Source: Shinella zoogloeoides (GTDB taxonomy: Bacteria > Pseudomonadota > Alphaproteobacteria > Rhizobiales > Rhizobiaceae). From it: DNA of 64,000 nt. The notes beneath the pieces are model-generated. The model searched no databases, was not told where the DNA came from, and was given only the letters and a program-made list of their open reading frames with translations. The number at the start of each line of letters is the position of its first letter. Position 1 is the first letter of the stretch. Of the stretch, positions 3,703-17,400 are shown one piece after another. The position numbers and the translations under genes are program-made. The stretch is taken from contig NZ_QNUJ01000012.1 of NCBI RefSeq assembly GCF_003574625.1, forward strand, positions 62,001 through 126,000, written 5' to 3'.

Positions 3703-3797
3703 TCGATCGGACCGCAGGTCCGATGCCGCTTTTCCGGAAAACGGCCCAAGCCGGAATTCCGGCATCGACGTTTTGGGGACTTGCACACGGTAGCTTA

Positions 3798-3842
3798 TTT
3801 TACTATCGTTTTCTAGTCAGTATAATCATCCAAATGATGATT
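3798..3842 (+). promoter_or_regulatory. traCDG promoter and palindromic operator
   Basis: A likely -35 TTTTAC (3798-3803) and a perfect -10 TATAAT (3821-3826) are separated by 17 bp, about 40 bp before traC. A 7-bp inverted repeat AATCATC-caaat-GATGATT (3824-3842) overlaps the -10 and the expected transcription start, which is where a repressor would bind. The element resembles the one upstream of the DUF1173 gene at 24565-24594. Confidence 0.6.
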
Positions 3843-3865
3843 GTTCACGCGGAAAGGATAGCGAT

Positions 3866-4153
3866 ATGGCCGGAAAATCCTCGATTGTTGATATTGATAC
3901 GCAGATCGAGAGACTTCGCGAACGTAGAAAACTTTTGATAGTTAAATCGGCGGATCGGTTCGCCCGTGCGGCGACGAAGTCGGGCCTGGCTGAGATGGAG
4001 ATCGCCGACGAGGAGGTCGATCGCATCTTCGAGGAGATCGCCGCGCGATTTCGGGAAGGGAAAAAGAAAAGGCCTGCTGGCGCATCTGCTGCGTCGCGTG
4101 GATCGGCAGATGGCGGCACTGGAGCGGCGACGGAGGTTTCTCATGACGGCTGA
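3866..4153 (+). CDS. traC: Conjugal transfer protein TraC
   Basis: This 95-residue protein starts MAGKSSIVDIDTQIERLRER and matches the small TraC of Ti/rhizobial plasmids in size, charge and position. TraC is thought to be an accessory relaxosome protein that helps TraA at oriT. The first 35 residues form an amphipathic, Arg/Lys-rich helix, and the C-terminal third is Ala/Ser/Gly-rich and probably disordered. AAAGGA stands 7 nt before the ATG. It is the first gene of traC-traD-traG; traD starts inside its last codons (11-bp overlap), which suggests translational coupling. Confidence 0.88.
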   Translation: MAGKSSIVDIDTQIERLRERRKLLIVKSADRFARAATKSGLAEMEIADEEVDRIFEEIAARFREGKKKRPAGASAASRGSADGGTGAATEVSHDG

Positions 4154-4376
4154 GCGGAAGAAGGAAGCCCGCGAAAAATTCATGCTCGGCGGCATCGTCG
4201 TGCGGGCAGGTCTGTCGAAGATCGACCGGGCCTTCCTCCTCGGCGGATTGCTCGAACTCGCGACGATCAGGCCAGGAACATCGGAGCACCGGCGGCTGCG
4301 CGATATCGGCGAAGAGGCATTCAGGGCACCGGCGCTCGACGGCATGGGTGGCGGCATGGTGGAGGCGGCTGAATGA
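4143..4376 (+). CDS. traD: Conjugal transfer protein TraD
   Basis: This 77-residue protein starts MTAERKKEAREKFMLGGIVV and has the TraD pattern of a basic N-terminus, a Gly-rich segment (GGIVVRAGL) and an Ala/Leu helix (DRAFLLGGLLELA). TraD of Ti plasmids is a small protein of uncertain biochemical role needed for, or aiding, DNA processing with TraC and TraG. The frame stays open further upstream, but ATG 4143 gives the family's usual N-terminus and overlaps the end of traC. Its stop overlaps the traG start (ATGA), so the three genes are coupled. Confidence 0.82.
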   Translation: MTAERKKEAREKFMLGGIVVRAGLSKIDRAFLLGGLLELATIRPGTSEHRRLRDIGEEAFRAPALDGMGGGMVEAAE

Positions 4377-6292
4377 CGACGCTGACCAAACCGCATCCGA
4401 GCCTGCTGCTGGTTCTGGTGCCGATCGCCGTCACGGCATTCGCCTTCTATGTTGCCGGCTGGCGCTGGCCGGCGCTTGCAGTCGGCATGTCGGGCAAAAC
4501 GGCGTACTGGTTCCTGCGGGCCGCGCCATTGCCGGCGCTTCTGCTCGGGCCGCTTGCCGGGCTTCTCACCGTCTGGGCGCTGCCGCTGCATCTGCGGAGA
4601 CCGATCGCCGTGGCGAGCCTTCTCAGCTTTCTGCTCGTCGCCGGGTTCTACGGGCTGCGGGAATTCGCGCGGCTTTCTCCGTTCGTGGAGAACGGAGCGG
4701 TGTCATGGGACGGAGCGCTTTCGTTTCTCGACAGGATAGCCATCGGAGCGGCCGTCGCCGGCTTTATCGCCGTCGCGGTCGCCGCGCGCATCTCGACGGT
4801 CGTGCCCGAACCGGTGAAGCGCGCCAAGCGCGGAATCTTCGGGGACGCAAACTGGCTTCCGATGGCGGCGGCAGGAAAGCTCTTTCCGCCTGACGGCGAG
4901 ATCGTCGTCGGTGAGCGCTACCGGGTCGACAAGGATATCGTCCGGGACGTACCCTTCGATCCCTATGATCGCTCGACATGGGGAAAAGGCGGAACCGCGC
5001 CGCTCCTCACCTACAAGCTGAACTTCGACTCCACCCATATGCTGTTCTTTTCGGGCTCGGGGGGATTCAAGACCACGAGCAACGTCATACCGACGACGTT
5101 GCTCTACAGCGGTCCCTTGATCTGCCTCGATCCCTCCACGGAGATCGCGCCGATGGTCGTCGAGCACCGCACCCGCGCGCTCGGGCGCGAGGTGATGGTG
5201 CTCGACCCGATGAACCCCGTCATGGGCTTCAACGTCCTCGACGTCATCGAGACCTCGCTGAAGAAGGAAGAGGACATAGTCGGCATCGCGCACATGCTGC
5301 TGTCGGAAAGCGTGCGCATCGATACATCGACCGGCTCCTATTTCCAGAACCAGGCGCACAATCTCCTGACGGGCCTCCTCGCCCATGTGATGCTTTCGCC
5401 GGAATACGAGGGACGGCGAAACCTGCGCAGCCTTCGGCAGATCGTTTCCGAACCGGAGCCGTCCGTGCTCGCCATGCTGCGCGATATTCAGGAACATTCC
5501 GCATCCGCCTTCATCCGTGAAACGCTGGGCGTCTTCACCAACATGACCGAACAGACGTTCAGCGGCGTCTATTCGACCGCGTCGAAGGATACGCAATGGC
5601 TGTCGCTCGAAGGCTACGCCGCGCTCGTCTGCGGCAATGCGTTCAAGTCGAGCGATCTCGTCAGCGGAGAGAAGGACATTTTCCTGAACTTGCCCGGCGA
5701 CATTCTGCAATCCTATCCGGGTATCGGCCGGGTGATCATCGGCGCGCTGATCAAGGCGATGGTGCAAGCCGATGGCGGCTTCAGGCGGCGGGCGCTGTTC
5801 ATGCTGGATGAGGTGGATCTGCTCGGCTACATGCGCGCGCTCGAAGAGGCGCGCGACCGCGGTCGCAAGCACGGCATCACCATGATGCTGCTCTACCAGT
5901 CGGTCGGGCAGCTGGAGCGGCATTTCGGCAGAGACGGCGCGACGTCGTGGATCGACGGATGCGCCTTTGCAAGCTACTCGGCGATCAAGTCGATGGAGAC
6001 GGCCAAGAACGTCTCGGCGCTGTGCGGTGTGATGACGGTAGAGGTCAAGGGAGATTCGCGCGACGTCAGCTTCGCCACGAAGAACGGCTCACCGCGAAAA
6101 TCGGAGAACATCACCTATCAAGCGCGACCGTTGCTCCTGCCTCATGAAGTGACCCAGACCATGCGAAAGGATGAGCAGATCATCATCGTGCAAGGCCATA
6201 GCCCGATCCGCTGCGGGCGGGCGATGTACTTCCGGCGGAAGGATATGAACAAGGCAGCAAAGCCCAACCGGTTCGCCAAGCGTCATCGCTGA
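4373..6292 (+). CDS. traG: Type IV coupling protein TraG (VirD4 family)
   Basis: TraG is the inner-membrane ATPase that links the TraA-DNA complex to the mating-pair formation channel. The 639 residues begin with hydrophobic segments typical of coupling proteins (about residues 10-30, 45-65, 75-95 and 120-140). The cytoplasmic NTPase follows, with Walker A SGSGGFKTT near residue 230 and Walker B LFMLDEVDLLG near residue 477. Length is normal for Ti-type TraG. The start overlaps the traD stop by four bases. No trb (mating-pair formation) genes are visible, so they must lie elsewhere if the plasmid is self-transmissible. Confidence 0.95.
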   Translation: MTTLTKPHPSLLLVLVPIAVTAFAFYVAGWRWPALAVGMSGKTAYWFLRAAPLPALLLGPLAGLLTVWALPLHLRRPIAVASLLSFLLVAGFYGLREFARLSPFVENGAVSWDGALSFLDRIAIGAAVAGFIAVAVAARISTVVPEPVKRAKRGIFGDANWLPMAAAGKLFPPDGEIVVGERYRVDKDIVRDVPFDPYDRSTWGKGGTAPLLTYKLNFDSTHMLFFSGSGGFKTTSNVIPTTLLYSGPLICLDPSTEIAPMVVEHRTRALGREVMVLDPMNPVMGFNVLDVIETSLKKEEDIVGIAHMLLSESVRIDTSTGSYFQNQAHNLLTGLLAHVMLSPEYEGRRNLRSLRQIVSEPEPSVLAMLRDIQEHSASAFIRETLGVFTNMTEQTFSGVYSTASKDTQWLSLEGYAALVCGNAFKSSDLVSGEKDIFLNLPGDILQSYPGIGRVIIGALIKAMVQADGGFRRRALFMLDEVDLLGYMRALEEARDRGRKHGITMMLLYQSVGQLERHFGRDGATSWIDGCAFASYSAIKSMETAKNVSALCGVMTVEVKGDSRDVSFATKNGSPRKSENITYQARPLLLPHEVTQTMRKDEQIIIVQGHSPIRCGRAMYFRRKDMNKAAKPNRFAKRHR

Positions 6293-6328
6293 TTGCAGCA
6301 AGGGACCGATGCGGACGCGCGCGGCGCG

Positions 6329-6718
6329 TTATGGATCGGTACGGCGATAGCGTTCGGCCGGGTCGGTCTCGCCCGGCGGCGTGATCCAGTCGACGAACCT
6401 GGAATAGCCCATGGCGAAGGCGATCGAGCCGATGGCCATCAGAAGGATGGCCCAAGGGGGCATTCCGGGCGAAGCCTCCGGTTTGACGAAGGCTGCGAAG
6501 GCAAGCAACAGCATCACCATGCCGCCGAGGATCATCACGTTGACGACCGGGCGCAGCGCGGAAAGGACGGCGAAGGCAATGTACCACGCGGCATGGAGCG
6601 TTGCCGCCACCATGGCGACGACAATCACGAACGGGAGCCGAACGACGAAGCGCAGCGCGCGCGAAGCGGCGCTGCGCTTCGTCGCGCCGGTCTCGGTGGC
6701 TTTAGGCTCCATGGACAT
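6329..6718 (-). CDS. Small multi-pass membrane protein, conserved next to traG
   Basis: This 129-residue protein has a short basic N-terminus and about three hydrophobic stretches (residues 25-50, 55-85 and 92-112), so it is probably an inner-membrane protein. AAGGAG lies 7 nt before the chosen ATG; a second ATG two codons downstream is possible. It is convergent with traG, and its stop is only about 35 bp from the traG stop. I recognise it as a plasmid-associated hypothetical but cannot name a function; a role in transfer or entry is only suggested by position. Confidence 0.75.
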   Translation of the reverse strand: MSMEPKATETGATKRSAASRALRFVVRLPFVIVVAMVAATLHAAWYIAFAVLSALRPVVNVMILGGMVMLLLAFAAFVKPEASPGMPPWAILLMAIGSIAFAMGYSRFVDWITPPGETDPAERYRRTDP

Positions 6719-6833
6719 GGCTGGCTCCTTGGACGGGCGAACTCTTGCTTACGAGAGAGTCTAGTCCCGCAAAAGGATCCAGACAACAACGGCGCGACCG
6801 GTCCGTAGCGTGTCGCGCGCAGTGAGAGTTGAA

Positions 6834-6853
6834 GGGAGGCGTGAACGCCTCCC
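6834..6853. terminator. Bidirectional terminator-like hairpin
   Basis: A perfect 9-bp stem GGGAGGCGT-ga-ACGCCTCCC lies just past the stop of the minus-strand gene 6864-7304 and is followed on the + strand by TTCTTCTT. It probably ends transcription of that gene before the membrane-protein gene. Confidence 0.55.
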
Positions 6854-6863
6854 TTCTTCTTGT

Positions 6864-7304
6864 TCAGACGCGAGCCGCGACGAACCGGATGCCGGTTTGC
6901 TGGCGGATGCGGTCGAGAATATCGAAGAGGCCCTCCTGGTCAGCCGCCGGAACGATGGTGTAGTCGAGATCCACCTCGCAAACGTCGTCCTCGATGACGA
7001 CCTTCTCGCTGATTTCGTCGAGGATGGAGATCGAGCCCGACTTGATCCATCGGCGTTCGAAGTGTGTGCAGACATGGTAGATCTCGTAAAGGAAATCTCC
7101 CGCCCAGGTGCCCTTGTCAGCGGCAAACTGCTTCTCCGTCTCCATTTCCTCAAGAAGCGCCGCAGCAACCTCGTCGAGCTTCGTGACCAGCGTGTCATGC
7201 AGGTCGCGCGCGAACGCGCTCTTGCATGCCGCTCGGTTCGCGACGACTTCGGTGCGAAAGGCGGCGATGGTCGGAACGAGTGTGAGTGCGTTGAACGTCA
7301 TCAT
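6864..7304 (-). CDS. Conserved plasmid hypothetical protein (146 aa)
   Basis: The frame is open much further upstream, but the ATG at 7304 has AGGAG 7 nt before it and starts the well-behaved part of the protein (MMTFNALTLVPTIAAFRTEV). The product is acidic and mostly helical, with no signal peptide or membrane segment: a Leu/Glu-rich middle (KLDEVAAALLEEMETEKQF), one His-Cys-His cluster (YHVCTHFERR) and a C-terminal acidic domain. I do not recognise a family with a known role. It lies directly downstream of the long inverted repeat at 7347-7466, which may carry its promoter. Confidence 0.75.
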   Translation of the reverse strand: MMTFNALTLVPTIAAFRTEVVANRAACKSAFARDLHDTLVTKLDEVAAALLEEMETEKQFAADKGTWAGDFLYEIYHVCTHFERRWIKSGSISILDEISEKVVIEDDVCEVDLDYTIVPAADQEGLFDILDRIRQQTGIRFVAARV

Positions 7305-7346
7305 GATATGTCTCCTTTCGATTGACGAAAGGTGTCGACGTTGTTG

Positions 7347-7466
7347 CCCGGCGGGGGTCAAGGACCGCGGAACGCGGCATGCAAGCGGCAACGCTGATTT
7401 TCCGGCGTCGCCCAACAGGCGGTGGCGGAAAATCAGCGTTGCCGCGCCGTCCTTGAGGCCCGGTGG
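7347..7466. repeat. Long nested inverted repeat IR1
   Basis: The core is a perfect 20-bp inverted repeat (7385-7404 against 7426-7445, sharing GCTGATTTTCC) around a 21-nt spacer that can itself pair. Imperfect outer arms continue the symmetry (about 7347-7370 against 7446-7466, sharing GTCCTTGA). The centre is 111 bp upstream of the start codon at 7304. It belongs to a family of five such structures (see IR2-IR5). As single-stranded DNA or RNA it would fold into one long hairpin. Confidence 0.9.
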
Positions 7467-7499
7467 GCTGGCGTAGAATGGGAAGTCAGAAGAAGAGCC

Positions 7500-7599
7500 C
7501 GCGGCCCGAAGGGCCGCGCCGTCTCCGGCGATCAGCCGGCGGGGTGCGCGAGGGGCATCCCCTTGCGATGAGACGGCCGGTCGATCCGGCTGTCTCGTC
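7500..7599 (+). ncRNA. Structured element, copy A (four hairpins)
   Basis: Four consecutive stems are visible: CGCGGCCC/GGGCCGCG (7500-7518), CCGGC-gatca-GCCGG (7525-7539), GGGGTGC/GCATCCCC (about 7541-7562), and a 14-bp stem with loop TCGAT (7567-7599). Copy B at 8080-8181 repeats the order with compensatory base changes in stems 1 and 4, which argues for selection on structure rather than on sequence or protein. Whether it works as RNA or as folded single-stranded DNA is unknown. The spacer 7305-7680 (376 bp) holds only IR1 and this element, plus a further CGTGCGGGA/TCCCGCACG stem after 7630. Confidence 0.6.
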
Positions 7600-7680
7600 C
7601 GGCACGCGTGAGCATCATCAAGGGCCGAAACGTGCGGGACCGCCGATCCGCTCCCGCACGCGAAGGATGGGACTGCTTCC

Positions 7681-7869
7681 CTAGAAGGGAAGCTCGTCCC
7701 AGTCGGGGCTCGCCCGCAGTTCGGCGATTGCCTCGGCACGCTCGCCAATCAGCTTGTCGAGCACGACCTTGCTCCAGTACCGCTCGATTTCGGGTGCGTC
7801 GCAGCTGTAGAGGTTGTCCTCTACCTCTGCGATCATCTGGTCGATATCCAGGTGGTTCTTGGTACGCAT
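7681..7869 (-). CDS. Small acidic hypothetical protein (62 aa)
   Basis: The ATG has GGAGA 6 nt upstream. The product, starting MRTKNHLDIDQMIAEVEDNL, is acidic and helical with no membrane segment. It keeps the same context as its neighbours: a small gene with a long inverted repeat (IR2) centred about 107 bp upstream. I do not recognise a domain. Codon use looks like that of the surrounding plasmid genes, so I take it as real. Confidence 0.65.
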   Translation of the reverse strand: MRTKNHLDIDQMIAEVEDNLYSCDAPEIERYWSKVVLDKLIGERAEAIAELRASPDWDELPF

Positions 7870-7886
7870 CTTCGTCTCCTTCGCTT

Positions 7887-8066
7887 CAATGACGAAGCGG
7901 GCCTATCGCTTCTCGACGAGCGGGTCAGGGACCGCGAAGCGGCCGCCGGGGCGGGGAGTGGGGGAGCCGATTTTGTTGGCGGGCGCTACGGCGACCGACG
8001 ACAAAATTGGGGGCACCGCTCATCCTTGAGGCGCTTGTCGGGAAGCGATAGGCTAGGTCGTCATTG
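7887..8066. repeat. Long nested inverted repeat IR2
   Basis: Outer arms of about 41 nt (7887-7927 against 8027-8066) share long blocks such as GAAGCGATAGGC and TCGTCATT. The inner part has CCGATTTTGT (7971-7980) pairing with ACAAAATTGG (about 8000-8010) with one G-T pair. The centre is about 107 bp upstream of the start codon of the 62-residue gene ending at 7681. It shares the GTGGGGGAGCCGATTTT block with IR3. Confidence 0.85.
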
Positions 8067-8079
8067 AGAGAGAGATAGC

Positions 8080-8181
8080 CACGGCCCCCAAGGGCCGTGT
8101 CCATCTCCGGCGACCAGCCGGCGGGGTGTGCGAGGGGTATCCCATTGCGGCAAAGTGGCCGGTCGATCCGGCTGCTTTGCC
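8080..8181 (+). ncRNA. Structured element, copy B (four hairpins)
   Basis: This has the same order of stems as copy A: CACGGCCC/GGGCCGTG (8080-8099), CCGGC-gacca-GCCGG (8107-8121), GGGGTGT/GTATCCC (8123-8143), and a 14-bp stem with loop TCGAT (8149-8181). Relative to copy A, at least four base pairs of stem 4 and the outer pairs of stem 1 change on both sides. It ends about 210 bp before the WGR gene. The spacer 7870-8392 (523 bp) otherwise holds IR2 and a small inverted repeat at 8321-8348. Confidence 0.6.
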
Positions 8182-8320
8182 CAGCGAGAGTGAGCGTGAC
8201 CGCAGGCCGAGACGGCTTCGCCGGCTCGGGGAGCGACGGCACGGCGCGAGTAGGGAGCGGTCGGCCAAGGGCCGGCTCGCCCAGATCACCTTTCCTCTGA
8301 ACCGTCCACCTATCAGGAAA

Positions 8321-8348
8321 TTGAATCGAACCCGGCCCTCCGATTCAA
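8321..8348 (+). promoter_or_regulatory. Operator-like inverted repeat before the WGR gene
   Basis: TTGAATCG (8321-8328) and CGATTCAA (8341-8348) form a perfect 8-bp inverted repeat with a 12-nt spacer, 45 bp upstream of the WGR start. It could bind a dimeric regulator; no partner is evident. Confidence 0.4.
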
Positions 8349-8392
8349 AAGTGTCGTTGGACGTCGATCGGCGAACGGGCGATCTTCTCGCC

Positions 8393-8662
8393 ATGCTGAT
8401 GCAACCCTATCATCTCTATACGGAACGCCTGGATGCTGGCCGGAATATGGCGCGCTTCTATGCCCTTGCGATCGAGCAGACGCTGTTCGGGACACCCTGC
8501 CTGGTCCGGCGATGGGGACGGATCGGGACTGGCGGTCAGGCGAAGGTGCATCATTTCGAGCGGGAAGAGGACGCGGTCGCGATGTTCCTGGCGCTGCTTC
8601 GGGTGAGACGGTCTCGCGGATACGCCACGAAAGCCACGGGCTCGATGCATGGGCGGCGCTAA
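8393..8662 (+). CDS. WGR domain protein
   Basis: This 89-residue protein is a stand-alone WGR domain. It shows the typical order: a variable YxLYTERLDAGRNMARFYAL start, then RRWGRIGTGGQAKVHHF containing the WGR signature, and a C-terminal helix EDAVAMFLALLRVRRSRGY. WGR domains bind nucleic acid and occur in PARPs and MolR-like proteins; single-domain forms are common on rhizobial plasmids with unknown targets. It is one of few + strand genes in this block. The start is uncertain: ATG 8393, ATG 8399 and an upstream GTG 8351 are all in frame, none with a strong Shine-Dalgarno. Confidence 0.85.
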   Translation: MLMQPYHLYTERLDAGRNMARFYALAIEQTLFGTPCLVRRWGRIGTGGQAKVHHFEREEDAVAMFLALLRVRRSRGYATKATGSMHGRR

Positions 8663-8699
8663 ACGACGATCGGAAGGATGGGATGGGAAGCGGAGCTTC

Positions 8700-8734
8700 G
8701 GGCCGGGGCGCCGGTCGATCCGGCGCGTCGGCCC
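8700..8734 (+). repeat. Structured element, copy C (terminal hairpin only)
   Basis: A hairpin with the same TCGAT loop and GCCGG/CCGGC upper stem as stem 4 of copies A and B has a different but still pairing lower stem (GGGCCG/CGGCCC). About 14 pairs form with one mismatch. It lies between the WGR gene and the 51-residue gene. Confidence 0.55.
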
Positions 8735-8758
8735 AATCGTGCAAGGCAAAAGCCTCCC

Positions 8759-8914
8759 TCAGTGGGGAGGCTCGGCGTCCTCGGCGGCGATGCGTGCGGC
8801 CAGTTCGGCGCGGGCCTGTTCCAGCTCGGCCTCGATCTGGGCGCGCTCGGCCGGGTCGCAGTGGTTCGCTTCGCGGCGCAGCTCTTCGATGTGGTTTTCG
8901 AGGGTGTTCGTCAT
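8759..8914 (-). CDS. Small coiled-coil protein (51 aa)
   Basis: The product MTNTLENHIEELRREANHCD is followed by an Ala/Glu/Arg heptad-like stretch to residue 45 and an acidic tail, so it is probably a short coiled coil that dimerises. I chose the ATG at 8914 because AAGGAG lies 9 nt before it; ATGs at 8923 and 8959 are in frame but worse placed. No known family is recognised. Inverted repeat IR3 is centred 112 bp upstream. Confidence 0.65.
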   Translation of the reverse strand: MTNTLENHIEELRREANHCDPAERAQIEAELEQARAELAARIAAEDAEPPH

Positions 8915-8955
8915 CGTCGTCATCTCCTTGATGATGTGAAAGATGACGTTGTCGG

Positions 8956-9095
8956 CCATGACGGAGCGGTGCGGGTCAAAACCCGCTTTAGCGGCTCGCG
9001 CGTGGGGGAGCCGATTTTTTTGTCGAGCCGCTTTAGCGGTTCGGCGGAAAAATTGGGGGTACCACGCGGTTTTGACGCGCGCCGCTCCGTCATGG
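8956..9095. repeat. Long nested inverted repeat IR3
   Basis: The outer arms (8956-8983 and 9068-9095) match at 26 of 28 positions and include GACGGAGCGG and GGTTTTGAC. Inside, GCGTGG/CCACGC and GATTTTT/AAAAATT continue the stem, and GCCGC-ttta-GCGGT forms the tip. The centre is 112 bp upstream of the start at 8914. The mirror symmetry runs into the first codons: MADNVI at 8959 on the minus strand is mirrored by a short MADLAI frame at 9091 on the plus strand. Confidence 0.92.
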
Positions 9096-9181
9096 CAGAC
9101 TTGGCGATCTGAGCAGACAGACCTTCCTCTCGTGGGGCACCGCTAAAATCCGGCCGCGCCGGGCGGCCGGATCCTATGGGA

Positions 9182-9508
9182 TCAGGCGTGGAAATCGACC
9201 GTGCAGCTTTCCTGAAGTTGGATAGCCCACAGTCCTGCCTGTTCGGGCGACTGCCATGCAACACCGGAAATCCGCTTTCCCGACGGGCACCTGACGACAA
9301 CGGCGATATAGGGGATGCCGTTGACCGGGCTCGTGTTGCTCCAGCCATGGCCGAGTTCGACGTCGCTGGTGTCGAGCCGGTAGTCGGGCGCGTAATGGTT
9401 CGTCCGTTCGATAGGGTGCAGGGCGATCGGCAGGTCGAGGAGGAACGACAGGTCGACGTCGATTCCGAGCGGTCCCGGCAGAAGCATTGCGATCAGGTGC
9501 GTGTTCAT
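9182..9508 (-). CDS. DUF736-like protein, divergent
   Basis: This 108-residue protein keeps the DUF736 core: APDYRLDTSDVELGHGW lines up with the family's PDYRV...EIGAGW, and GIPYIAVVVRCPSG with its repeated beta strands. The N-terminus (MNTHLIAMLLPGPLGIDVDL) differs from classical members. DUF736 proteins are abundant on rhizobial plasmids and their function is unknown. AAGGAG lies 7 nt before the ATG. A second, classical DUF736 gene lies just upstream, so this is a tandem pair, probably cotranscribed through the hairpin at 9533-9558. Confidence 0.7.
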   Translation of the reverse strand: MNTHLIAMLLPGPLGIDVDLSFLLDLPIALHPIERTNHYAPDYRLDTSDVELGHGWSNTSPVNGIPYIAVVVRCPSGKRISGVAWQSPEQAGLWAIQLQESCTVDFHA

Positions 9509-9532
9509 CGTAGTCTCCTTCACGAGGGGCAA

Positions 9533-9558
9533 AAGGAAGCCGGCCCCTTGCGGGGCCG
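9533..9558 (-). terminator. GC-rich hairpin between the two DUF736 genes
   Basis: CCGGCCCC-ttgc-GGGGCCGG forms an 8-bp stem between the stop at 9571 and the Shine-Dalgarno of the next gene. On the minus strand it is followed by CTTCC rather than a T-run, so it may be an attenuator or RNA-stability element. An inverted, decayed copy is seen near 10490-10510. Confidence 0.45.
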
Positions 9559-9570
9559 GTTCGGTTCGGC

Positions 9571-9894
9571 TCACTCCGGGTTGTTCCAGAGGATCACCTT
9601 CTTGTTGTCCTCGCCGCCCGGCGCGGGGGCCAGGTTCCCGAAGATGACGCCGATCTCGGGGGCCTCCATCCGGATCGAGACGTATTCTGCCCCGCTGCGC
9701 GGCGAGATCTTGTTCCAGCCCGCGCCGATCTCGAACCCGGTGCGCTTGTTGATGACGCGGTAGTCCGGGGCGTCCTCGCGGGACTTGTGGGCGTTGGGGA
9801 GGACGGCGATCGGGGCATTGACGCGGAGCGTTGCGAAGACGCCTTCCATCGAGCCGTCGGCCTTGGTGGTGAGGTTTGCGATCGTGGATGCCAT
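9571..9894 (-). CDS. DUF736 family protein
   Basis: This 107-residue protein is a classical DUF736 member: MASTIANLTTKADGSMEGVF at the start, DAPDYRVINKRTGFEIGAGW in the middle, and repeated short beta strands to the end. The family is nearly confined to alphaproteobacterial plasmids and integrative elements; its role is unknown. GGAGAA stands before the ATG. Inverted repeat IR4 is centred about 114-125 bp upstream, and a degraded copy of this gene lies on the opposite strand on the other side of IR4. Confidence 0.85.
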   Translation of the reverse strand: MASTIANLTTKADGSMEGVFATLRVNAPIAVLPNAHKSREDAPDYRVINKRTGFEIGAGWNKISPRSGAEYVSIRMEAPEIGVIFGNLAPAPGGEDNKKVILWNNPE

Positions 9895-9908
9895 GGTAGT
9901 TCTCCTTC

Positions 9909-10129
9909 GGTTCCATCGGGACCGTTCCCGATGTCGGCAAAGGAGAGGGCTGACCTGCTGCGGTCAGCTCGGCGGAAAATTTTGGAAAATTCGATTTGCC
10001 GCCAAAGCGGACAAACCGAAATCGAATTTTGCAAAAATTTCTGTCGAGTCTTACCCCTTCAGGGGTTGGCCGCAAAAGCAGGCAGTCCTCTACAAAGTCG
10101 GCATCAATGGGAACGGGCCGTGTGGAACC
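9909..10129. repeat. Long nested inverted repeat IR4
   Basis: Outer arms 9909-9938 and 10097-10129 share GGTTCCA and GGGAACGG blocks. The inner core is a perfect 12-bp repeat AAAATTCGATTT (9986-9997) against AAATCGAATTTT (10019-10030), flanked by further A/T-rich imperfect pairing. IR4 is the centre of a larger inverted duplication that includes the DUF736 gene on the left and its pseudogene on the right. Confidence 0.85.
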
Positions 10130-10149
10130 GGAGGTGATGCGTGCCGTGG

Positions 10150-10465
10150 CGTCCCGACTTGCAGCCTCTCCGCCAGCGCTGCGACCGCTCGATGGAGGTG
10201 ACTTTGCCTATCGGTTTGCGCGCCATTGCCTTTGCCGCCCTTCCCGCACGACTACCCCGCGAGGGCGCTCCGGGGTGCCGACGTCATCGCAAGCGCCCGG
10301 CGTTCGACGGCGTGGGTTGGGACCGGGGTGAGACGTGCAGCGGGTCCGATATGCCGCGTCTCGACCCGGATTGAGGTCTTCGAGGCAGGCATTATCTTCC
10401 GCATCGGTCCTGGCCGCCGCGCCCGGCGGCGAGGACGGCAAGGAGACGATCTCTCTCTGCACGAC
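10150..10465 (+). pseudogene. Degraded inverted copy of the DUF736 gene
   Basis: On the + strand this stretch aligns by eye with the coding strand of the DUF736 gene 9571-9894: CGCTCGATGGA near 10188, CCCGCGAGG near 10256, GACGTCATC near 10280, GTGCAGCGGG near 10333, CGTCTCGACCCGGAT near 10356, and CCGGCGGCGAGGAC near 10424. The frame is broken several times, and no single reading frame gives the DUF736 protein. Past it, CGCAAGGGGCCGGCTTCC (about 10494-10511) mirrors the hairpin following the intact gene. The rest of the spacer to 10605 holds nothing I recognise. Confidence 0.75.
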
Positions 10466-10605
10466 ATCGGAGGGGCCGAGCGGACCGGTCCCGCAAGGGG
10501 CCGGCTTCCTGAAGGGCGGCAGGAAGCCACGGAGATCATCGCAGCGAGACGCCGGCGTGCTGTCGGCCGGCCGCGGCCGGGCAAGACGCCCGCCGAACAG
10601 GCGTT

Positions 10606-11142
10606 TCATCGCCCGTTGGCGAGATGGCGCTCCCCGTCGGTCATGCGTGCCTCGATCCGCCCCACCAGATCCCGGCCGGCATTGCGCAGCATCTCATGCC
10701 AATCGGGAAGGCTTCGGAGCGTGAATGTCGCTCTGCGCATCGTGTCGTAGACGACGCAGGGGGAACCGGCTGCGGCAAGGCGCAGCATGTTGAGGCAGGT
10801 TCCCGGCGAAGCGCCATCCCAGACCATCAGCCCGTAATCGGCCCGCCGCGCCATCTCGCGATCCTTTTCGGCATGAAAGGCGTAGCCGTGCGCGCCTCCC
10901 GGCGCAGGCCGGTGATATGCCGCCCAGTCGCCCAGATTGTTGCGCGGCTCGCTGCCGGCATGGAAGACGCCGACATGCTCATAGCCATAGCCGGCGAGCA
11001 GGCTCTGCGCCTCCGCATCAGCTCCGGGCGCATCGCCGACCAACACGCCATGCTCGGCGGCGATCATCGCGCCGATGCGCGCTATCACCGGTTCCGGCAG
11101 CTCGAATATGTCGCGTGATCCGCCTACGAATATCATCGCCAT
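10606..11142 (-). CDS. SLOG (YspA/DUF2493-like) nucleotide-binding protein
   Basis: This 178-residue protein has the SLOG Rossmann pattern: MAMIFVGGSRDI at the first strand, GVLVGDAPGADAEAQ as the glycine-rich GD.PGAD motif near residue 35, then YGLMVWDG and a C-terminal SPCVVYD strand. SLOG proteins bind nucleotides or nucleotide-derived ligands and often act in signalling or conflict systems. AAGGAG lies 7 nt before the ATG at 11142, so the longer open frame upstream is not coding. A purine-rich leader shared with four other genes lies just upstream. Confidence 0.78.
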   Translation of the reverse strand: MAMIFVGGSRDIFELPEPVIARIGAMIAAEHGVLVGDAPGADAEAQSLLAGYGYEHVGVFHAGSEPRNNLGDWAAYHRPAPGGAHGYAFHAEKDREMARRADYGLMVWDGASPGTCLNMLRLAAAGSPCVVYDTMRRATFTLRSLPDWHEMLRNAGRDLVGRIEARMTDGERHLANGR

Positions 11143-11145
11143 GGT

Positions 11146-11199
11146 CGCTCTCCTTTTTCCACCAACAGGCCTACCCCCTCCCTGCCCACCTCTCCCTCT
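11146..11199 (-). repeat. Purine-rich leader element 1
   Basis: On the minus strand this reads GAGGGAGAGG... and ends in a GGAGAGC block just before the start of the SLOG gene. It has the same layout as elements at 18971-19024, 23563-23612, 34189-34249 and 36014-36073. This is the most diverged of the five. Confidence 0.45.
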
Positions 11200-11220
11200 A
11201 GGCGACCGCATCGAAGGAGC

Positions 11221-11281
11221 GGAACGGCGAAGCCGTTCCGCGGACCAGCAGACGGCCCGGGCCGGCCTTCGGCCGGCTTTT
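11221..11281 (+). terminator. Two hairpins, the second terminator-like, with no obvious gene
   Basis: GGAACGGC-gaa-GCCGTTCC (11221-11239) is followed by GCCGGCC-ttc-GGCCGGC and TTTT (11261-11281), a + strand intrinsic terminator. No + strand gene ends here, so it may close a small RNA or be a leftover. The spacer 11143-11449 holds this pair, purine leader 1 and the parDE promoter. Confidence 0.45.
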
Positions 11282-11377
11282 GCTTCGCGGGAAGAAAGCG
11301 GGACCCAGCCGTGCCAGACCTCCGCTCGGGACCTGCGACGATGCCCATCACGGCCAAAGCCGGGGATGCCATGCCGA

Positions 11378-11415
11378 TGTCAAATATTGACATTAAAGTC
11401 CCGGTACGGGAAAAT
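11378..11415 (+). promoter_or_regulatory. parDE promoter with palindromic operator
   Basis: TTGACA (11387-11392), a 17-bp spacer and GAAAAT (11410-11415) form a good promoter 35 bp before parD. The perfect palindrome TGTCAA-ata-TTGACA (11378-11392) includes the -35 box and is a likely operator for autoregulation by the antitoxin or the complex. Confidence 0.7.
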
Positions 11416-11449
11416 CCGCGTCGACAAATCCAACCGGGAGGGCGCGGCC

Positions 11450-11707
11450 ATGACCAGCAGCCTGCATGTGAGTTTGCCCGACGAAATGCGCGCCTTCGTC
11501 GATATGCGCGCAAACGGCAAGAACCAGTACACGACGCCGAGCGAATATGTGCGCGCGCTGATCCGCGAAGATATGGCGCGCGAGGAAGACCGCCGTTATG
11601 CGGTCCGCTCCCTGTTGAAGGCGGAGGAAGAATTCCGGCGCGGGGAAATGATGCCGCTGTCCGCGCTGGATGCCGTCGACGCGGAATTGGACGAAGAGCT
11701 GCGTTAG
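11450..11707 (+). CDS. parD: ParD-type antitoxin
   Basis: This 85-residue protein begins MTSSLHVSLPDEMRAFVDMR, a ribbon-helix-helix pattern with a short strand and two helices, including YTTPSEYVRALIREDM. The C-terminal half is charged and would wrap the toxin. It is the ParD/CopG-like antitoxin of a ParDE pair. GGGAGG is 8 nt before the ATG. The stop overlaps the toxin's GTG start by one base (TAGTG). On a plasmid such a pair usually stabilises inheritance. Confidence 0.85.
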   Translation: MTSSLHVSLPDEMRAFVDMRANGKNQYTTPSEYVRALIREDMAREEDRRYAVRSLLKAEEEFRRGEMMPLSALDAVDAELDEELR

Positions 11708-12078
11708 TGGCTCCCCGCATCCTTATCCTGCCGACGGCGCTGGAAAACTACCGTCTGGCGATCCGCGAGACGGCGCGAATCTGGTCGCCGCAACAGGCGA
11801 AAGCCTATGGACGCCTGCTTCGGAAGGGCTTCGAGGAGATCCCCGAAGCCTATGCCCGCGTGCGCACGAAGAAGGACGAGCGGGTGGGCAATTCCCTGTT
11901 CCGCCTCCACAAGATCGAGCATCACTATGCTGCCTATATCGTGGTGGACGACGCGACTTTTGTCGTCGCCGCTGTTCTGCACGAACGGATGGACATTCCC
12001 GCGCAGCTGCGCACCGTCGAACGATTGACGGACCGGGAGTACGAAGCCCTCATGGGGCACCCTCGCCCGAAGCGCTGA
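11707..12078 (+). CDS. parE: ParE/RelE-superfamily toxin
   Basis: The product of 123 residues shows the ParE fold: N-terminal helices (ENYRLAIRETARIWSPQQAK) and a C-terminal sheet with LFRLHKIEHHYAAYIV and VLHERMDIPAQL, the usual conserved end of ParE toxins. ParE toxins generally inhibit DNA gyrase. I chose the GTG at 11707, overlapping the parD stop; it has no own Shine-Dalgarno and is probably translated by coupling. An N-terminal extension of about 8 residues over typical ParE is possible. Confidence 0.82.
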   Translation: MAPRILILPTALENYRLAIRETARIWSPQQAKAYGRLLRKGFEEIPEAYARVRTKKDERVGNSLFRLHKIEHHYAAYIVVDDATFVVAAVLHERMDIPAQLRTVERLTDREYEALMGHPRPKR

Positions 12079-12088
12079 ACGCGCTCTT

Positions 12089-12132
12089 CGCCGGGCTGAT
12101 CGCCCGGCGGAGACGAGCCGCGTTTCGCGGCT
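12089..12132 (-). repeat. Structured element, copy D (two hairpins, minus strand)
   Basis: On the minus strand AGCCGCG-aaa-CGCGGCT is followed by CGTCTCCG and CGCCGGGC-gatca-GCCCGGCG. The order, the GTCTCC linker and the GATCA loop match stems 1 and 2 of copies A and B with different stem sequences. It lies between the convergent parE and DUF2493 genes, where a terminator would also be expected. Confidence 0.45.
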
Positions 12133-12149
12133 GGAAAGGAAAACGGCGC

Positions 12150-13091
12150 TCACGCGCCGTTGCCTCCAAAGCGCCAGACCGGGATGCCGAGCTTGCGGGC
12201 CTTGTCGGCCATATTGCCCTGGATGCCGCCGCCGGGAAACAGGATCAGTCCAGTCGGCATCGTTTCGATCAGCTGGTCGTTGCGCTTGAACGGCGCTACC
12301 GTGCGCGAATACTTTTTGAAGTTTGGCGGGAAGGGGATCTCCGTGACGCCGCGCGTACCGGCCCAGCGTGCGGCGATGCGTTCAGCGCCGGTCTTGCTGC
12401 CGCCGTGCAGGAGGACCATATCGGGGAATTTTGCGCGGGCGCGGTCCAGAGCGTCCCAGATCACCTGATGCTCGTTGTAGTCGGTTCCCCCGGAGAAGGC
12501 GATCTTGGTGCCGGCCGGGATCAGAACCTCGGTCTCGGCGCGCCGGCGAGCTGAGAGGAAGTCTCTGGAGTCGATCATCGCGGCGGTCATGTTGGCGTGG
12601 CTCACCTTCGATCCGGTGCGCGGCCGCCAGGCCGAGCCAGTCTGTGCCGCGAACAACTCGGCTGCATAGTCGCGCATGAACTCGAAGGCGTTGCGGCGCT
12701 CGAGGAGCGAGATGCCCTCCATGATATGGCGTTCGAGCTCGACGCTCTTGACTTCCGAGCCGTCCTGCTCGCGCTGCCCGTTTCGCTGGGCGTCCTCGTT
12801 GCGCTGAAGCTCGCGCTGGATGCGTTCGCCGGCGCGGTGGAAGAGGTTGACCGTCGACCAGAGCATGTCTTCGAGGTCGGGCTCCAGCCGCGTGTCGCCG
12901 AGCATTTCGAACATCGCGTCGAACATCGCGGTCAGCGCGGACTGGACGACTGGCTCCTCCGGCAGCGGGCGCGGGTCCGGCTCGTCCTCGAACGGACGAT
13001 AACCGTAGACCTGCATCTCGTAGATGACCCGGTCGGTCGGGGACGATGTGTGGAGCTCGGTAGCGGCATCGATGGGAAGTTGGACGTTCAT
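12150..13091 (-). CDS. DUF2493 (SLOG family) protein
   Basis: This 313-residue protein has a helical N-terminal region rich in Asp/Glu/Arg (to about residue 185) and a C-terminal DUF2493 domain. The domain shows IAFSGGTDYNEHQVIW, then DMVLLHGGSKTGAERIAARW with the HGG...G.E motif, and LILFPGGGIQGNMADKAR near the end. DUF2493 is a SLOG-type nucleotide-binding fold common on rhizobial plasmids. GGAG lies 6 nt before the ATG. The long inverted repeat IR5 is upstream. It is the second SLOG protein within 2 kb. Confidence 0.85.
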   Translation of the reverse strand: MNVQLPIDAATELHTSSPTDRVIYEMQVYGYRPFEDEPDPRPLPEEPVVQSALTAMFDAMFEMLGDTRLEPDLEDMLWSTVNLFHRAGERIQRELQRNEDAQRNGQREQDGSEVKSVELERHIMEGISLLERRNAFEFMRDYAAELFAAQTGSAWRPRTGSKVSHANMTAAMIDSRDFLSARRRAETEVLIPAGTKIAFSGGTDYNEHQVIWDALDRARAKFPDMVLLHGGSKTGAERIAARWAGTRGVTEIPFPPNFKKYSRTVAPFKRNDQLIETMPTGLILFPGGGIQGNMADKARKLGIPVWRFGGNGA

Positions 13092-13130
13092 GGTGATCTC
13101 CGTCGGTTGCGGCCGCGCCTCTCGCGGCCT

Positions 13131-13313
13131 GACGGCGATCCCTTTCCATCCGGCGGGCGGGCCGGAACCGCGGCGCTCGCGCCGCGGCCCAGCGCAGCGC
13201 CGGGCCGCCGGGGACAGGTTTTTTGCTCCGCGAGGAGCGCCGGCTTCGCCGGCGCGGGGAAAAAACCTGTCCCCGGCGGTTGGAGGCCCGAACGCCTGAT
13301 GGTAAGGGTCGCC
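13131..13313. repeat. Long nested inverted repeat IR5
   Basis: The inner core is a perfect 20-bp repeat (13205-13224 against 13260-13279, containing GGGGACAGGTTTTTT). Outer arms 13131-13163 and 13285-13313 share GGCCCG, GATGG and AAGGG blocks. GCGCCGGC-ttc-GCCGGCGC forms the tip. It is centred about 130-150 bp upstream of the DUF2493 start, so it is slightly further away than IR1-IR4. The spacer 13092-13414 holds nothing else. Confidence 0.9.
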
Positions 13314-13414
13314 TCTCGGCAGGCCCGCAGGTGCGCGCTCATCCGTGCGGCGACCAGCATGGCCGCCCTCCCCTCTGCCGCTCCCGCCCCGCCCATCTCC
13401 CCATCACGGCCTCA

Positions 13415-14449
13415 TCACGACGGCAGAAAGACGCTTGCGTCTTCCGGGGCGAGCTGCGCCCTGAGACTGCCGATCAGGCGGCTCGGGTCCTGCCGCAGAT
13501 CGTCGTTGAAGTCGCCGAGTTCCGGGGCGAGCACCAGCGGCAGGATCCCGCGGGCCTGCGCCCGGCGGCTCAGTCGCTCGATGCCGCTCCGGCCAGCAGC
13601 GTCGGCGTCGGCGGCGATGTAGAGGCGCATGCAATCGGGCGGCAGCTCGAAGGCGGCGAGGTGATTGGCCGTCAGCGCCGAGACCATCGGCATGCCGGGC
13701 ATGACGTGCGACAGGGACAGGATGCTTTCGAGGCCTTCGCCGGCGGCCATGACCGATACGGGGCGGTGGACAGGAAAGGCGAAGCGAACCGCATTGCCGA
13801 GCAGGCCGCCGAGCGCCCGGCGGGGATCGTCGACCAGCGCCTTGCCGCAACCATCGGGGTCGAGCCAGGTGCGATGCACGCCGGTGATCGTGCCACCGGG
13901 GTCGGTCACGGCCGCGATCAGCGCGGGGAAGCTGCACGTCCGGCCCGTTGCGAGATCGCGATAGTAGCAGGACGGATGATAGCGAAGCGCGGGGTGCAGG
14001 GATGCGCGCAGGATGCCGCGCTGGCGCAGATAGCTGTCCGCGAGGGTCCCCGCCAGCGGCTGCGACATGCGGAACAGGCGTTGCGCACGCTCGTCAGCCG
14101 GTCTTACGACCGGCGGATCGGTTCGGGCGTCGCCCCTGCGGGACGCCGCCGGATAGGGTTGCGGAAGACTGAGGAACCGCCTCGCCTCGTCAGCGACGTC
14201 GCGGAAATCGACAAGCCCGCAGGTCTCCCGCACGAGATCGAGCAGGTCACCATATTCAGCCGTGGCTCCGTCAGCCCACCGGCCGGCGCGCGGGCCGGTG
14301 AGGTGGACATAGAGCGACTTGCCCTTGCTGTTGACGGTGTCGCCGACGATCCAGTAATTGCCGGCCCTGCGGCCGGCGGAAAGATAGTGCCGGCAAACCG
14401 CCTCGGCATCGCGCGCAAGACGGTTCGCCAGTTCGGAGGCCGTGAGCAT
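13415..14449 (-). CDS. Toprim-domain (primase-like) protein
   Basis: This 344-residue protein has an N-terminal region resembling the DUF7146-type part of plasmid primases (NYWIVGDTVNSKGKSLYVHL) and a C-terminal Toprim domain with the acidic residues GEGLES near residue 240 and IAADADAAG near residue 285. Toprim domains bind Mg and catalyse nucleotidyl transfer or hydrolysis; here a role in priming or processing transferred single strands is plausible. AGGAGG is 6 nt before the ATG. It starts 12 bp after the stop of the giant methyltransferase-helicase gene, so the two form an operon. Confidence 0.82.
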   Translation of the reverse strand: MLTASELANRLARDAEAVCRHYLSAGRRAGNYWIVGDTVNSKGKSLYVHLTGPRAGRWADGATAEYGDLLDLVRETCGLVDFRDVADEARRFLSLPQPYPAASRRGDARTDPPVVRPADERAQRLFRMSQPLAGTLADSYLRQRGILRASLHPALRYHPSCYYRDLATGRTCSFPALIAAVTDPGGTITGVHRTWLDPDGCGKALVDDPRRALGGLLGNAVRFAFPVHRPVSVMAAGEGLESILSLSHVMPGMPMVSALTANHLAAFELPPDCMRLYIAADADAAGRSGIERLSRRAQARGILPLVLAPELGDFNDDLRQDPSRLIGSLRAQLAPEDASVFLPS

Positions 14450-14461
14450 GGCGATCCTCCT

Positions 14462-17400
14462 TCAATTCCGGCTGACGACATCGAGCAACCGATGACGCTG
14501 CATCAGGCGCGAAAGGATTGCAGCGCCTTCCTCGGTGACCGGAATGAAGAAGCGCAGCTTCCATGCGATCATCTCCGAAAACAGGCCGATCGCGCGCAGC
14601 CAGTCGCGCATCCCGTCCGTGAAGCCGGTCAATTCGACGCGGTTGTCGTTCATGACCCGGACGCGGCGCACCGTCATCTCACCGGCAAGGCTGATGATTG
14701 AGGAGCCATCGACCACCGACCGCCAAGCCTGCTCCGGATCGAGCACCTCGCTCCGGTCGATCCCGAAATTGTTGCACAGCCGGGAGAGGCCGGCCGGGGC
14801 GATCACGCGGCCGACGATGCGCTCGCCATCGTCGGTCTGCAGGCGGTAGACCCGGCAATAATCCTGCGGCAGCAGTTTCCAGATCGGCAGTAGCAGGCCC
14901 GAGACGACATGCAAGGTCGAGGTCGAGAATTCCGGCACCTTGGCGACCTCGGCATTCCAGGCGGCGGCGAACACCTGTTCGTCCGCCTCCTCCCAGTTCG
15001 TCTCTTCGAGATGACGGATCTCGAAGCGCAGTTCGTCCATCGGCCGGATCAGCGCGACGCGCGGCTGGAGCGAGCCGTCGTCGAGCATGATGGAGCGTGT
15101 CGGGGCCATGACGGCGGCGCGCTCGGACTTTGCGTTGATCATCAACTTCGCGCGCGGATCCCGCGCCACCAGACGAAGGGCATCCTCAAGGAGCATCGGC
15201 CGGTTGCGGTCCAGGCGCTCGATGGTCAGAAGGTGCGACTGCGCGCCGGTGACCGGATGCGTGTAGACCAGCTTGCGATCCTTCAGCGTCATGCGATCGG
15301 CCGTCAGCGTCTCCAGGCCCTTGTCGTAGACGCCGGCGGCGATGGCACCCTCGATGCGGGCCGCCAGCAGTTCCTCGAAGGACTCGAAGAGGACGTTTTG
15401 CATGGCAATGGTCAGCGCCAGCATGCGATTGAGGAAGGTGTGGATCGGCGGCAATTCATCCGTCAACCCACCATCCTCGTCGCAGAGTGAGAGGCCCGTG
15501 ATCGTCTCGAAGGCTTCCAGCGAGCAGCCGGTGACCGCACCGCTATGGACGCGCTTGTAGAATTGCCTGAGCGCATCGCGGGCGTATTGGGATTCGAGAT
15601 TGTCCTCGCTGCGGAACATGCCCTGCCCGCCGGTCTGGCGCTGGCCACGGGTGATCGCGCCGAGCGTGTCGAGCCGCCGGGCGATCGTCGAGAGAAACCG
15701 CCGCTCGGCCTTCACATCGGTCGCGACCATCCGGAAGCGCGGCGGCTGGGCCTGGTTGGTGCGATGGCTGCGCCCGAGGCCCTGGATCGCGACATCGGCG
15801 CGCCAGCCGGCTTCGAGCAGGTTGTGCAGGCGCTGGCGCTGGTTCTTCGCGCCAAGATCGGCATGGTAGGAGCGCCCGGTTCCACCGGCTTCCGAGAAGA
15901 CGAGGATCGGCTTCCGGTCATCCATGAAGGCGCGCGTCTCGTCGAGATTGGCGCTGCCCGGCCGGCTCTCGACGGCGAAGCGGGCAAAAGCGCCGTCCCC
16001 ATCCCGGCGCACGATACGACGGGAGCGTCCGGTGATTTCGGCGACCTTGTCCGATCCGAAATGCTGGACGATCTGGTCGAGCGCGGTCGGGATCGCCGGC
16101 AGGCTGCCGAGTTTTTCCAGCAATTCGTCACGACGGGCAGCGGCCTCACGGCACAGGACCGGATTACCGTCGGCGTCATAGGCAGGTCGGGAAAGCAGAT
16201 TGCCCTCGTTGTCCGAATATTCCTCAAAGAGCTGGGTCGGGAACGAGTTCATCAGGTACTCCGCGACGATCTCGCGCGGGGTCACGTCGACCTGGATGTC
16301 GTTCCATTCCTCTGTCGGGATTTCGGCGAGCCGCCGCTCGGTTATAGATTGTCCCGTCGAGATGAGCTGGACAATCGCGGCATGGCCGTCCGCCACGTCC
16401 TGGTTGATCGTGCCGATCAGCGTGGGCGTCTTCATGCTCGTCAAAAGATGATTGAAGAAGCGCTGCTTCGTGCTCTCGAAGGCGGAACGCGCCGCGGCTT
16501 TGGCATTTTTGTTGAGCGTTCCAGCCGCCGAGGTGATGCTGCAGGCTTCCAGCGCCTGATCGAGGCGATTGTGGATCACCTGATAAGCCTCGGCATAGGA
16601 ATCGTAGATGCGGACCTGCTCCTCGGTCAGCGCGTGTTCGAGGATCTCATATTCGACACCCTCGAACGACAGCGAGCGGGAGCCATAAAGCCCCATCGCC
16701 TTGAGATCGCGGGCGAGCACCTCCATGGTCGCAACGCCGCCGTCCTCGACGGCGGCGATGAATTCGCTGCGGGTGGCGAAGGGGAAGTCGGCGCTGCCCC
16801 AAAGACCGAGCCGCTCCGCATAGGCGAGCGACTCGACTTCGGATGCTCCGGTTGCCGAGACATAAACGACGCGCGCGTCGGGCAGCGCGCGCTGAAGGCG
16901 AAGACCGGCGCGACCCTGCTGCGAGGCAGCCTTGTCGCCACGGTCGGACTTGCCGCCGGCAGCGTTGGCCATGGCATGGCCTTCATCGAAGATGACGACG
17001 CCATCGAATATCTTTGCTTCATCGACCACGCCATCATGATCCTCGCCCTCGCAGAGCCAGTCGACGATCTGCTGGACACGGGAGGACTTGCCCTCGCGTT
17101 CGTCCGTGCGGAGCGTCGCGAAGGTCACGAACAGGATTCCCTCGTCCAGCTTGATCGGCTTGCCCTGCCGGAAGCGCGACAGAGGCGTGACCAGCAGCTT
17201 CTCCTGACCGAGTGCCGACCAGTCACGTTGGGCGTCCTCGATCAAGGTCTCGGATTTCGAGATCCAGACGTGCCGCCGGCGGCCCTTCAGCCAATTGTCG
17301 AGAATGATGCCGGCGGCCTGCCGGCCCTTCCCGGCTCCCGTGCCATCGCCGAGAAACCATCCGCGACGGTATCGCACCGCGCCCTCGGTTTCCGGGCTGA

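Follow-up and report, generated by a model that had tools for sequence, protein, structure and literature searches.

What could be the function of five very long inverted repeats, each placed before the start of a minus-strand gene, in a 64 kb stretch of Shinella zoogloeoides DNA (hereafter the window; positions 62001-126000 of a 200.7 kb contig, in an assembly of 5.4 Mb)? We consider it highly probable, judging from sequence, that these repeats (IR1 to IR5) are single-strand DNA promoters of a plasmid leading region, Frpo-like in function and with no detectable sequence similarity to those of the F plasmid. The first-pass annotation had proposed single-strand promoters as one possibility, and this proposal now finds support in the fold itself, in the strand on which it forms, namely that transferred during conjugation (T-strand; IR5 excepted), in covariation (IR3 family), in the position within the leading region and before orthologous genes, and in promoter boxes, which are good in IR1-IR3 and poor in IR4 and IR5. 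The named plasmids closest to the window come from Shinella in the first place, followed by Agrobacterium, Sinorhizobium, and Rhizobium.

Both a repeat search and single-strand folding bear out the five repeats at the places first described. The arms detected by the repeat search lie at 7385-7412/7418-7445 for IR1 (28 nt, 89%), 7901-7931/8023-8053 for IR2 (84%), 8951-8983/9068-9100 for IR3 (91%), 9968-9997/10019-10048 for IR4 (87%), and 13205-13224/13260-13279 for IR5 (20 nt, 100%), and the corresponding plus-strand hairpins extend over 7335-7480, 7902-8055, 8952-9102, 9905-10133, and 13105-13324. Folded as single-stranded DNA, they gave z values of -8.9, -10.2, -10.0, -12.5, and -8.3 (IR1-IR5), equalled in no case by any of 200 shuffles, and a scan of the whole window (2128 segments of 180 nt, 12 shuffles each) returned them as the top five folding places of the 64 kb. 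Using 300 shuffles per strand, the z values for the plus and minus strands were -10.2/-9.1 (IR1), -8.8/-4.7 (IR2), -10.1/-6.6 (IR3), -9.1/-5.4 (IR4), and -7.6/-7.8 (IR5), so that the folding of both strands, which the first-pass annotation had suggested as a check, favors the plus strand in four of the five intervals and leaves IR5 equal. The arm centers are located approximately 111, 108, 112, 114, and 151 nt upstream of the start codons, near the values on which the earlier idea of a fixed distance was based.

The left end of the window is a Ti-type transfer module, in which traA (minus strand) is followed by traD and traG (plus strand). The traA gene, with an open frame of 1540 aa that runs past the left edge, contains a MobA/MobL relaxase domain at 2899-3597 on the minus strand (PF03389, 231 bits), and the coupling protein gene traG occupies 4373-6292 on the plus strand (TIGR02767 TraG-Ti, 1012.5 bits). 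Between traA and traD/traG there is an oriT nick region of the Ti/RSF1010 type (3669-3700, plus strand, ACGTCGCGCCAGCGACGTATATTGCGCCCTC), presumably nicked on the plus strand before CCCT, between 3694 and 3695, by analogy with RSF1010 and pTiC58. Given this site and its orientation, the 5' end of the plus strand would be the first to reach the recipient, and the minus-strand genes located from 6.3 kb onward would thus be leading-region genes templated by the entering strand. By this analogy the plus strand is likely the T-strand, leading rightwards. The nick motif appeared in 36 of the 109 loci examined, many of which stop short of oriT, always in the same orientation with respect to the leading genes (opposite orientation, 0). 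Considering the orientation of oriT and traA, the hairpins all fall within the leading region, each upstream of one of five minus-strand, T-strand-templated genes.

Relatives allow us to read which strand folds, since what pairs as G.T on one strand becomes an A.C mismatch on its complement, and retained mismatches therefore reveal the folding strand. In the alignment of IR3 with its relatives (33 sequences), the structure derived from the T-strand contained 170 G.T cells vs. only 3 A.C cells. As this structure came from the T-strand itself, the count was repeated on the pairs of the complement's own fold, giving 29 G.T vs. 4 A.C, and the consensus energy was -49.0 for the T-strand and -18.3 for the complement. 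The alignment upstream of the DUF736 gene, near-invariant and therefore little informative, gave 16 G.T vs. 7 A.C on an unbiased pair set. Upstream of the DUF2493 gene the T-strand folded better in 76 of 78 loci (78 of the 80 had enough DNA), and in 66 of the 78 it did so beyond what was expected from shuffles correcting for composition. These data also bear on a very different explanation, that the repeats act as RNA elements (attenuators or riboregulators) within the 5' leader of each minus-strand mRNA, as might be suggested by their location 5' of genes and by two weak sub-threshold minus-strand Rfam matches over IR4 and IR5. In such an RNA the G.T pairs would become A.C, precisely the combination avoided in both counts, the consensus would have the poorer energy of the complement, and the search of Rfam 15 over 3000-20000 produced three matches in total, all below the gathering score. 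We regard an RNA-leader function as highly improbable.

The first-pass annotation had anticipated that absence of the repeats from related plasmids carrying the same genes would speak against it; hairpins are, however, present before the orthologs of g1, g3, DUF736, and DUF2493, the genes behind IR1, IR3, IR4, and IR5, respectively. The median z value of the T-strand fold (zT; one upstream region per ortholog, duplicates removed) was -4.5 for g1 (13 regions), -4.7 for g3 (37), -7.8 for DUF736 (72), and -3.5 for DUF2493 (72). Controls gave -0.4 for toprim (68), +0.4 for traG (30), -1.3 for the 129-aa gene (11), -0.6 for the helicase (20), and -2.1 for the 178-aa gene (11), and in this comparison the hairpins were absent before the toprim, traG, helicase, and 129-aa genes. 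A T-strand advantage beyond that of the shuffles was observed in 12/13 (g1), 35/37 (g3), 64/72 (DUF736), and 59/72 (DUF2493) regions, compared to 33/68, 7/30, 5/11, 6/20, and 7/11 in the same order of controls. In nine annotated plasmids (among them S. meliloti pSymA, one A. tumefaciens pAt, pAtK84b, one A. fabrum plasmid, and Sphingobium pCHQ1), zT values below -4 preceded 20 of 76 T-templated genes vs. 1 of 42 T-sense genes; in pCHQ1, which has a different relaxase and pilus type, none of 16 genes had such a fold. Palindromic inserts are found at the hairpin tips upstream of DUF2493 in three of the loci (L021, L024, and L074), with the arms intact.

This regular placement is relevant to whether the hairpins could instead be single-strand initiation sites, loading a primase or primosome or permitting a short polymerase primer for complementary-strand synthesis, with no role in gene expression. 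Folding of the T-strand in the leading region fits this possibility equally well, and the Frpo of F reportedly also makes primer RNA (a finding attributed to Masai and Arai, 1997). Nonetheless, five copies in 6 kb exceed the need for priming, each hairpin adjoins the start of a gene, with none before the toprim, traG, or helicase genes, and the -35/-10-like boxes (see below) face the gene, with predicted starts just before Shine-Dalgarno sequences. Priming as the sole function thus appears unlikely to us, and the reading as promoters is preferred.

The structure of the IR3 hairpin has been maintained in relatives by compensatory change. In the IR3 alignment both sides had changed in 23 of 41 pairs, and 97.3% of the cells were paired, compared to 85.3% in shuffles and 32-47% in slid versions; none of 500 shuffles attained any of the five covariation measures. 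TTGA in the 3' arm is invariant in the 33 sequences, and the variation of its 5' partner always yields G.T. The DUF736 alignment showed covariation in only 5 of 51 pairs because its arms are near-invariant. We also observed a purine-rich internal loop (AGGAA opposite AGGGG and variants) between a side hairpin and the A/T-rich stem, at 8985-9065 and 7955-8015 of the window; its invariant unpaired Gs occur in IR2, IR3, and relatives, and it is absent from IR1. The loop might reflect protein contact, tandem G.A pairs, or G-tetrads.

If the hairpins are promoters, the boxes should be found on the folded strand, and this is the case for IR1-IR3 and their relatives, more weakly for IR4 and IR5. IR1 has a -35 TTGAGG (7453-7458) and a -10 TAGAAT (7474-7479) at a spacing of 15, with a predicted leftward start at ~7325-7328; IR2 has TTGAGG (8026-8031) and TAGGCT (8049-8054), spacing 17, start ~7892-7895; and IR3 has TTGACG (9072-9077) and CAGACT (9096-9101), spacing 18, start ~8943-8946. 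IR4 presents a -35-like TTGGCC (10066-10071) and TACAAA (10091-10096), spacing 19, with a start derived by hand at ~9930-9934, and IR5 a weak -35-like TTGGAG (13280-13285) and TAAGGG (13303-13308), spacing 17, start ~13127-13130. The predicted leaders (22, 24, 30, ~37, and 37 nt for IR1-IR5) contain Shine-Dalgarno-like sequences. Among 129 non-redundant hairpins, the 3' arm held a paired TTGA 39 times, compared to 6 times for the 5' arm. For the 28 hairpins with a CTTGA paired in the 3' arm, the best -10 score at spacings 15-18 averaged 2.6 on the 3' arm vs. -6.6 for the 5' arm's complement, i.e., the would-be non-template of the double strand, and the 3' arm scored higher in 27 of the 28. The share of NANNNT on their 3' arm at spacings 15, 16, 17, 18, and 19 was 0.21, 0.04, 0.54, 0.14, and 0.07, against 0, 0, 0, 0, and 0.04 on the double strand. 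With the hairpins grouped by downstream gene family, the 3' arm scored higher in 7/7 before g1 (TATAAT, TAAAAT, and the like), 15/15 before g3 (CAGACT and the like), 35/37 before DUF736 (TAGAAA, TATACG), and 17/18 before DUF2493 (AAGGGT), the last two sets having poor -10 boxes and the last count being unreliable because at least three of the four rows shown had the 5' partner in the wrong place.

The same data can be set against the more conventional interpretation of operators, or double-strand promoters with large palindromes, bound by a protein on duplex or cruciform DNA. Palindromes upstream of genes are common in operators, and IR5 is equally stable on either strand. On the other hand, no -10 is correctly positioned on the double strand, and a consensus promoter scan of 6300-14500 found no minus-strand double-strand promoter, its sole sigma-70-like promoter being located on the plus strand at 11387, before a ParE-like pair. 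In addition, arms of 20-70 nt are maintained by covariation and not by sequence, and the counts of G.T and A.C are asymmetric. This alternative is, in our opinion, distinctly unlikely compared to promoters formed on the single strand.

How widespread these elements are was assessed by a covariance model (R1) made from 30 IR3 relatives of other genomes, with the window excluded. On the window, R1 matched IR3 (108.9 bits), IR2 (105.5 bits), and IR1 (68.7 bits) on the plus strand, and IR5 with 21.6 bits (E 0.0066), leaving IR4 unmatched. IR1, IR2, and IR3 therefore constitute one sequence family, which corrects the first-pass statement that sequences differ between members; this still holds for IR4, with no match, and for IR5, given its low score. 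In the 80 loci, 30 of which had supplied the sequences of the model, R1 gave 78 matches above 50 bits distributed over 59 loci, 78/78 on the T-strand, and at 60 bits or more it matched eight of the nine comparison plasmids and not pCHQ1. Whole-genome samples at the levels of order, class, and phylum contained matches in 11/297, 10/289, and 10/299 genomes, overlapping samples in which S. zoogloeoides was counted each time and every match belonged to the same class or closer, the phylum sample's share outside the class not being given. We examined 11 distant matching stretches, holding 14 R1 matches. Twelve of these, spread over nine stretches, keep the layout seen in the window: a gene (longest frame) starts 3-52 nt away from the base of the hairpin, and NANNNT is located 15-19 nt past the -35 in 12/12. 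In 8 of 12 such genomes a coupling-protein gene shared the contig with the match, no more than 14 kb away, and DUF736 genes were found within 2 kb also in 8 of 12. The other two matches (L112 and L113) were set apart as probably other palindromes because they have neither the A/T inner stem nor a gene at the right place; L112 has NANNNT by chance.

The existence of such a family raises the question of whether these palindromes are simply mobile repeats that have no regulatory function, an origin with which the membership of IR1-IR3 in one family and the palindromes inserted at the hairpin tips of relatives would agree. Nevertheless, the whole 5.4 Mb S. zoogloeoides genome holds only three matches at E <= 0.01 (IR1-IR3 themselves), and the uniform orientation of the strong matches, the orthologous placement, and the long-term covariation speak against mobile repeats, making this explanation extremely improbable.

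Several observations weigh against single-strand promoters and should be considered together. IR5 has no strand preference, and in the 12-shuffle scan it (-7.1) barely exceeded a place inside traG at 5071-5250 (-7.0); at 300 shuffles this place and the other next one, 36181-36360, reached -5.7 and -6.0, and the gap is thus wider. The -10 boxes of IR4 and IR5 are poor, and spacings of 15 or 19 are outside the usual 16-18. The signal before DUF2493 is weak in many relatives (only a 0.42 fraction with zT < -4). The general count over the leading regions of the 80 loci, 224 folds at z < -5 in 73 loci, of which 190 favor the T-strand by >0.5 kcal/mol, 19 the other strand, and 15 approximately neither, includes very strong near-symmetric folds (e.g., in L054, L042, and L057) that resemble terminators or other repeats. 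The sequences share ancestry and the counts are not independent, and an excess of G.T could also result from biased mutation of cytosines exposed on the T-strand, although a G+T share of 0.498 upstream of DUF2493 argues against a strong bias. In the F leading region, low-z folds also appear at 15181, 16141, 13201, and 16891, which are not known promoters, indicating that a low z alone is insufficient to identify a single-strand promoter, and at the F Frpo regions, with TGGAC as the anchor, the -10 test yielded no good candidate at spacings of 15-19, the double strand scoring higher.

We infer from all these features polymerase binding, start sites, a switch, and early expression, which could be connected in the following manner. 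The nicked plus strand would pass into the recipient led by its 5' end, each repeat folding back into a hairpin whose 5' arm would serve as template and whose 3' arm would be the non-template face, with the A/T-rich inner stem resembling an UP element. The 3' arm would offer TTGA(C/G)G as a -35 in duplex and, 15-19 nt further on, a -10-like box at the frayed stem base, from which the host RNA polymerase holoenzyme could transcribe toward oriT into the minus-strand gene, through a leader of ~20-40 nt with a Shine-Dalgarno-like sequence. Second-strand synthesis would then open the hairpin and place the template opposite the 5' arm's exact complement, in which there is no -10, and the promoter would consequently shut off; the RNA may additionally prime this synthesis. 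In more general terms, it is reasonably likely that conjugative elements of Alphaproteobacteria share a family of single-strand-only promoters, not detectably related to the Frpo of F, in which the -10 exists only on the folded T-strand and is erased by second-strand synthesis, the purine-rich loop may dock a factor, and the small genes behind are the first expressed in the new host. If true, the principle of the single-strand promoter would extend to rhizobial and agrobacterial plasmids (S. meliloti pSymA, pAt-type) with a searchable model, and the missing double-strand -10 would provide a simple, testable account of promoter shut-off. It would also make g1, g3, DUF736, and DUF2493, mostly genes of no assigned function, candidates for early establishment.

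The genes served by the hairpins are all on the minus strand. Behind IR1, g1 (6864-7304, 146 aa) had no match in Pfam, NCBIfam, PADLOC, or PHROG and has relatives in 13 loci. Behind IR2, g2 (7681-7869, 62 aa) had no family match, and for this gene and a second DUF736-like gene (9182-9508) no orthologs were found by tblastn in the loci. Behind IR3, g3 (8759-8914, 51 aa; start picked by its Shine-Dalgarno sequence) had only sub-threshold Pfam matches and has relatives in 38 loci. IR4 precedes the DUF736 gene (9571-9894; PF05284, E 3.5e-19) and IR5 the DUF2493/YAcAr (SLOG) gene (12150-13091; PF10686, E 1.8e-26). PADLOC and PHROGs gave nothing informative for these genes; DUF2493 and the 178-aa protein showed weak matches to a phage 'GTP-binding domain' family. 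The toprim (DUF7146) gene at 13415-14449 on the minus strand (PF23639, PF13362), with no upstream hairpin, served as internal negative control. The region also contains a Strawberry-notch-type helicase protein with a methyltransferase-like part (14462-18946, minus strand; PADLOC mad2 weakly, E 6e-8), a ParE-like toxin gene preceded by a small frame within the leading region (11450-12078, plus strand), and, amid the leading genes, a T-sense WGR-domain gene (8393-8662, plus strand) annotated also on seven of the nine comparison plasmids. An ArdC-family gene stands amid the leading genes of A. fabrum pATPC2 (L087, 4463-5389), fitting an anti-defence role of the leading region; no strong hairpin was found directly upstream of it (zT -1.3).

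Single-strand promoters have been demonstrated experimentally for plasmids of enterobacteria, among them F with its Frpo promoters and ColIb-P9 with the related ssi promoter, and Frpo1 and Frpo2 of F are reported to be required for an early, transient expression of leading genes that ceases upon second-strand synthesis (PMC9849209). Frpo-like candidates in anti-defence islands, found by similarity to Frpo/ssi or in four chosen islands, are described in PMC11541004, and the elements presented here resemble them as predicted T-strand promoters before leading genes judged on fold, -35, -10, and UP elements. The main text of that source does not mention Agrobacterium, Rhizobi-, alphaproteobacteria, DUF736, or DUF2493. 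We found no description of such elements on rhizobial or other alphaproteobacterial plasmids in the literature searched, which did not comprise preprints, supplements, or most subscription journals, and an earlier description is possible. There is also a likeness to single-strand origins (sso, e.g., of ICEBs1), folded single-stranded DNA that acts on the incoming strand; these serve second-strand synthesis, whereas each hairpin here is tied to a gene start. With the Frpo of F our repeats share a T-strand hairpin in the leading region before T-templated genes, an A/T-rich inner stem, and the greater stability of the T-strand. In the same scan, the F leading region gave z values (T-strand/other strand) of -7.3/-5.3 before ssb, -5.8/-2.8 at 13741-13920, and -4.5/-2.3 before the antirestriction gene, the first two folds having an A/T-rich inner stem. 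R1 did not match the F leading region at E <= 1, and the best blastn hit against F had E 0.34 over 18 nt, with no detectable similarity to the Frpo/ssi sequence family of F. Unlike Frpo, members of the IR3 family carry a side hairpin on their 5' arm and a mismatch following TTGA, their -10 is at spacing 15-19, and their hosts are alphaproteobacterial, with plasmids of the MOBQ/MPF_T type.

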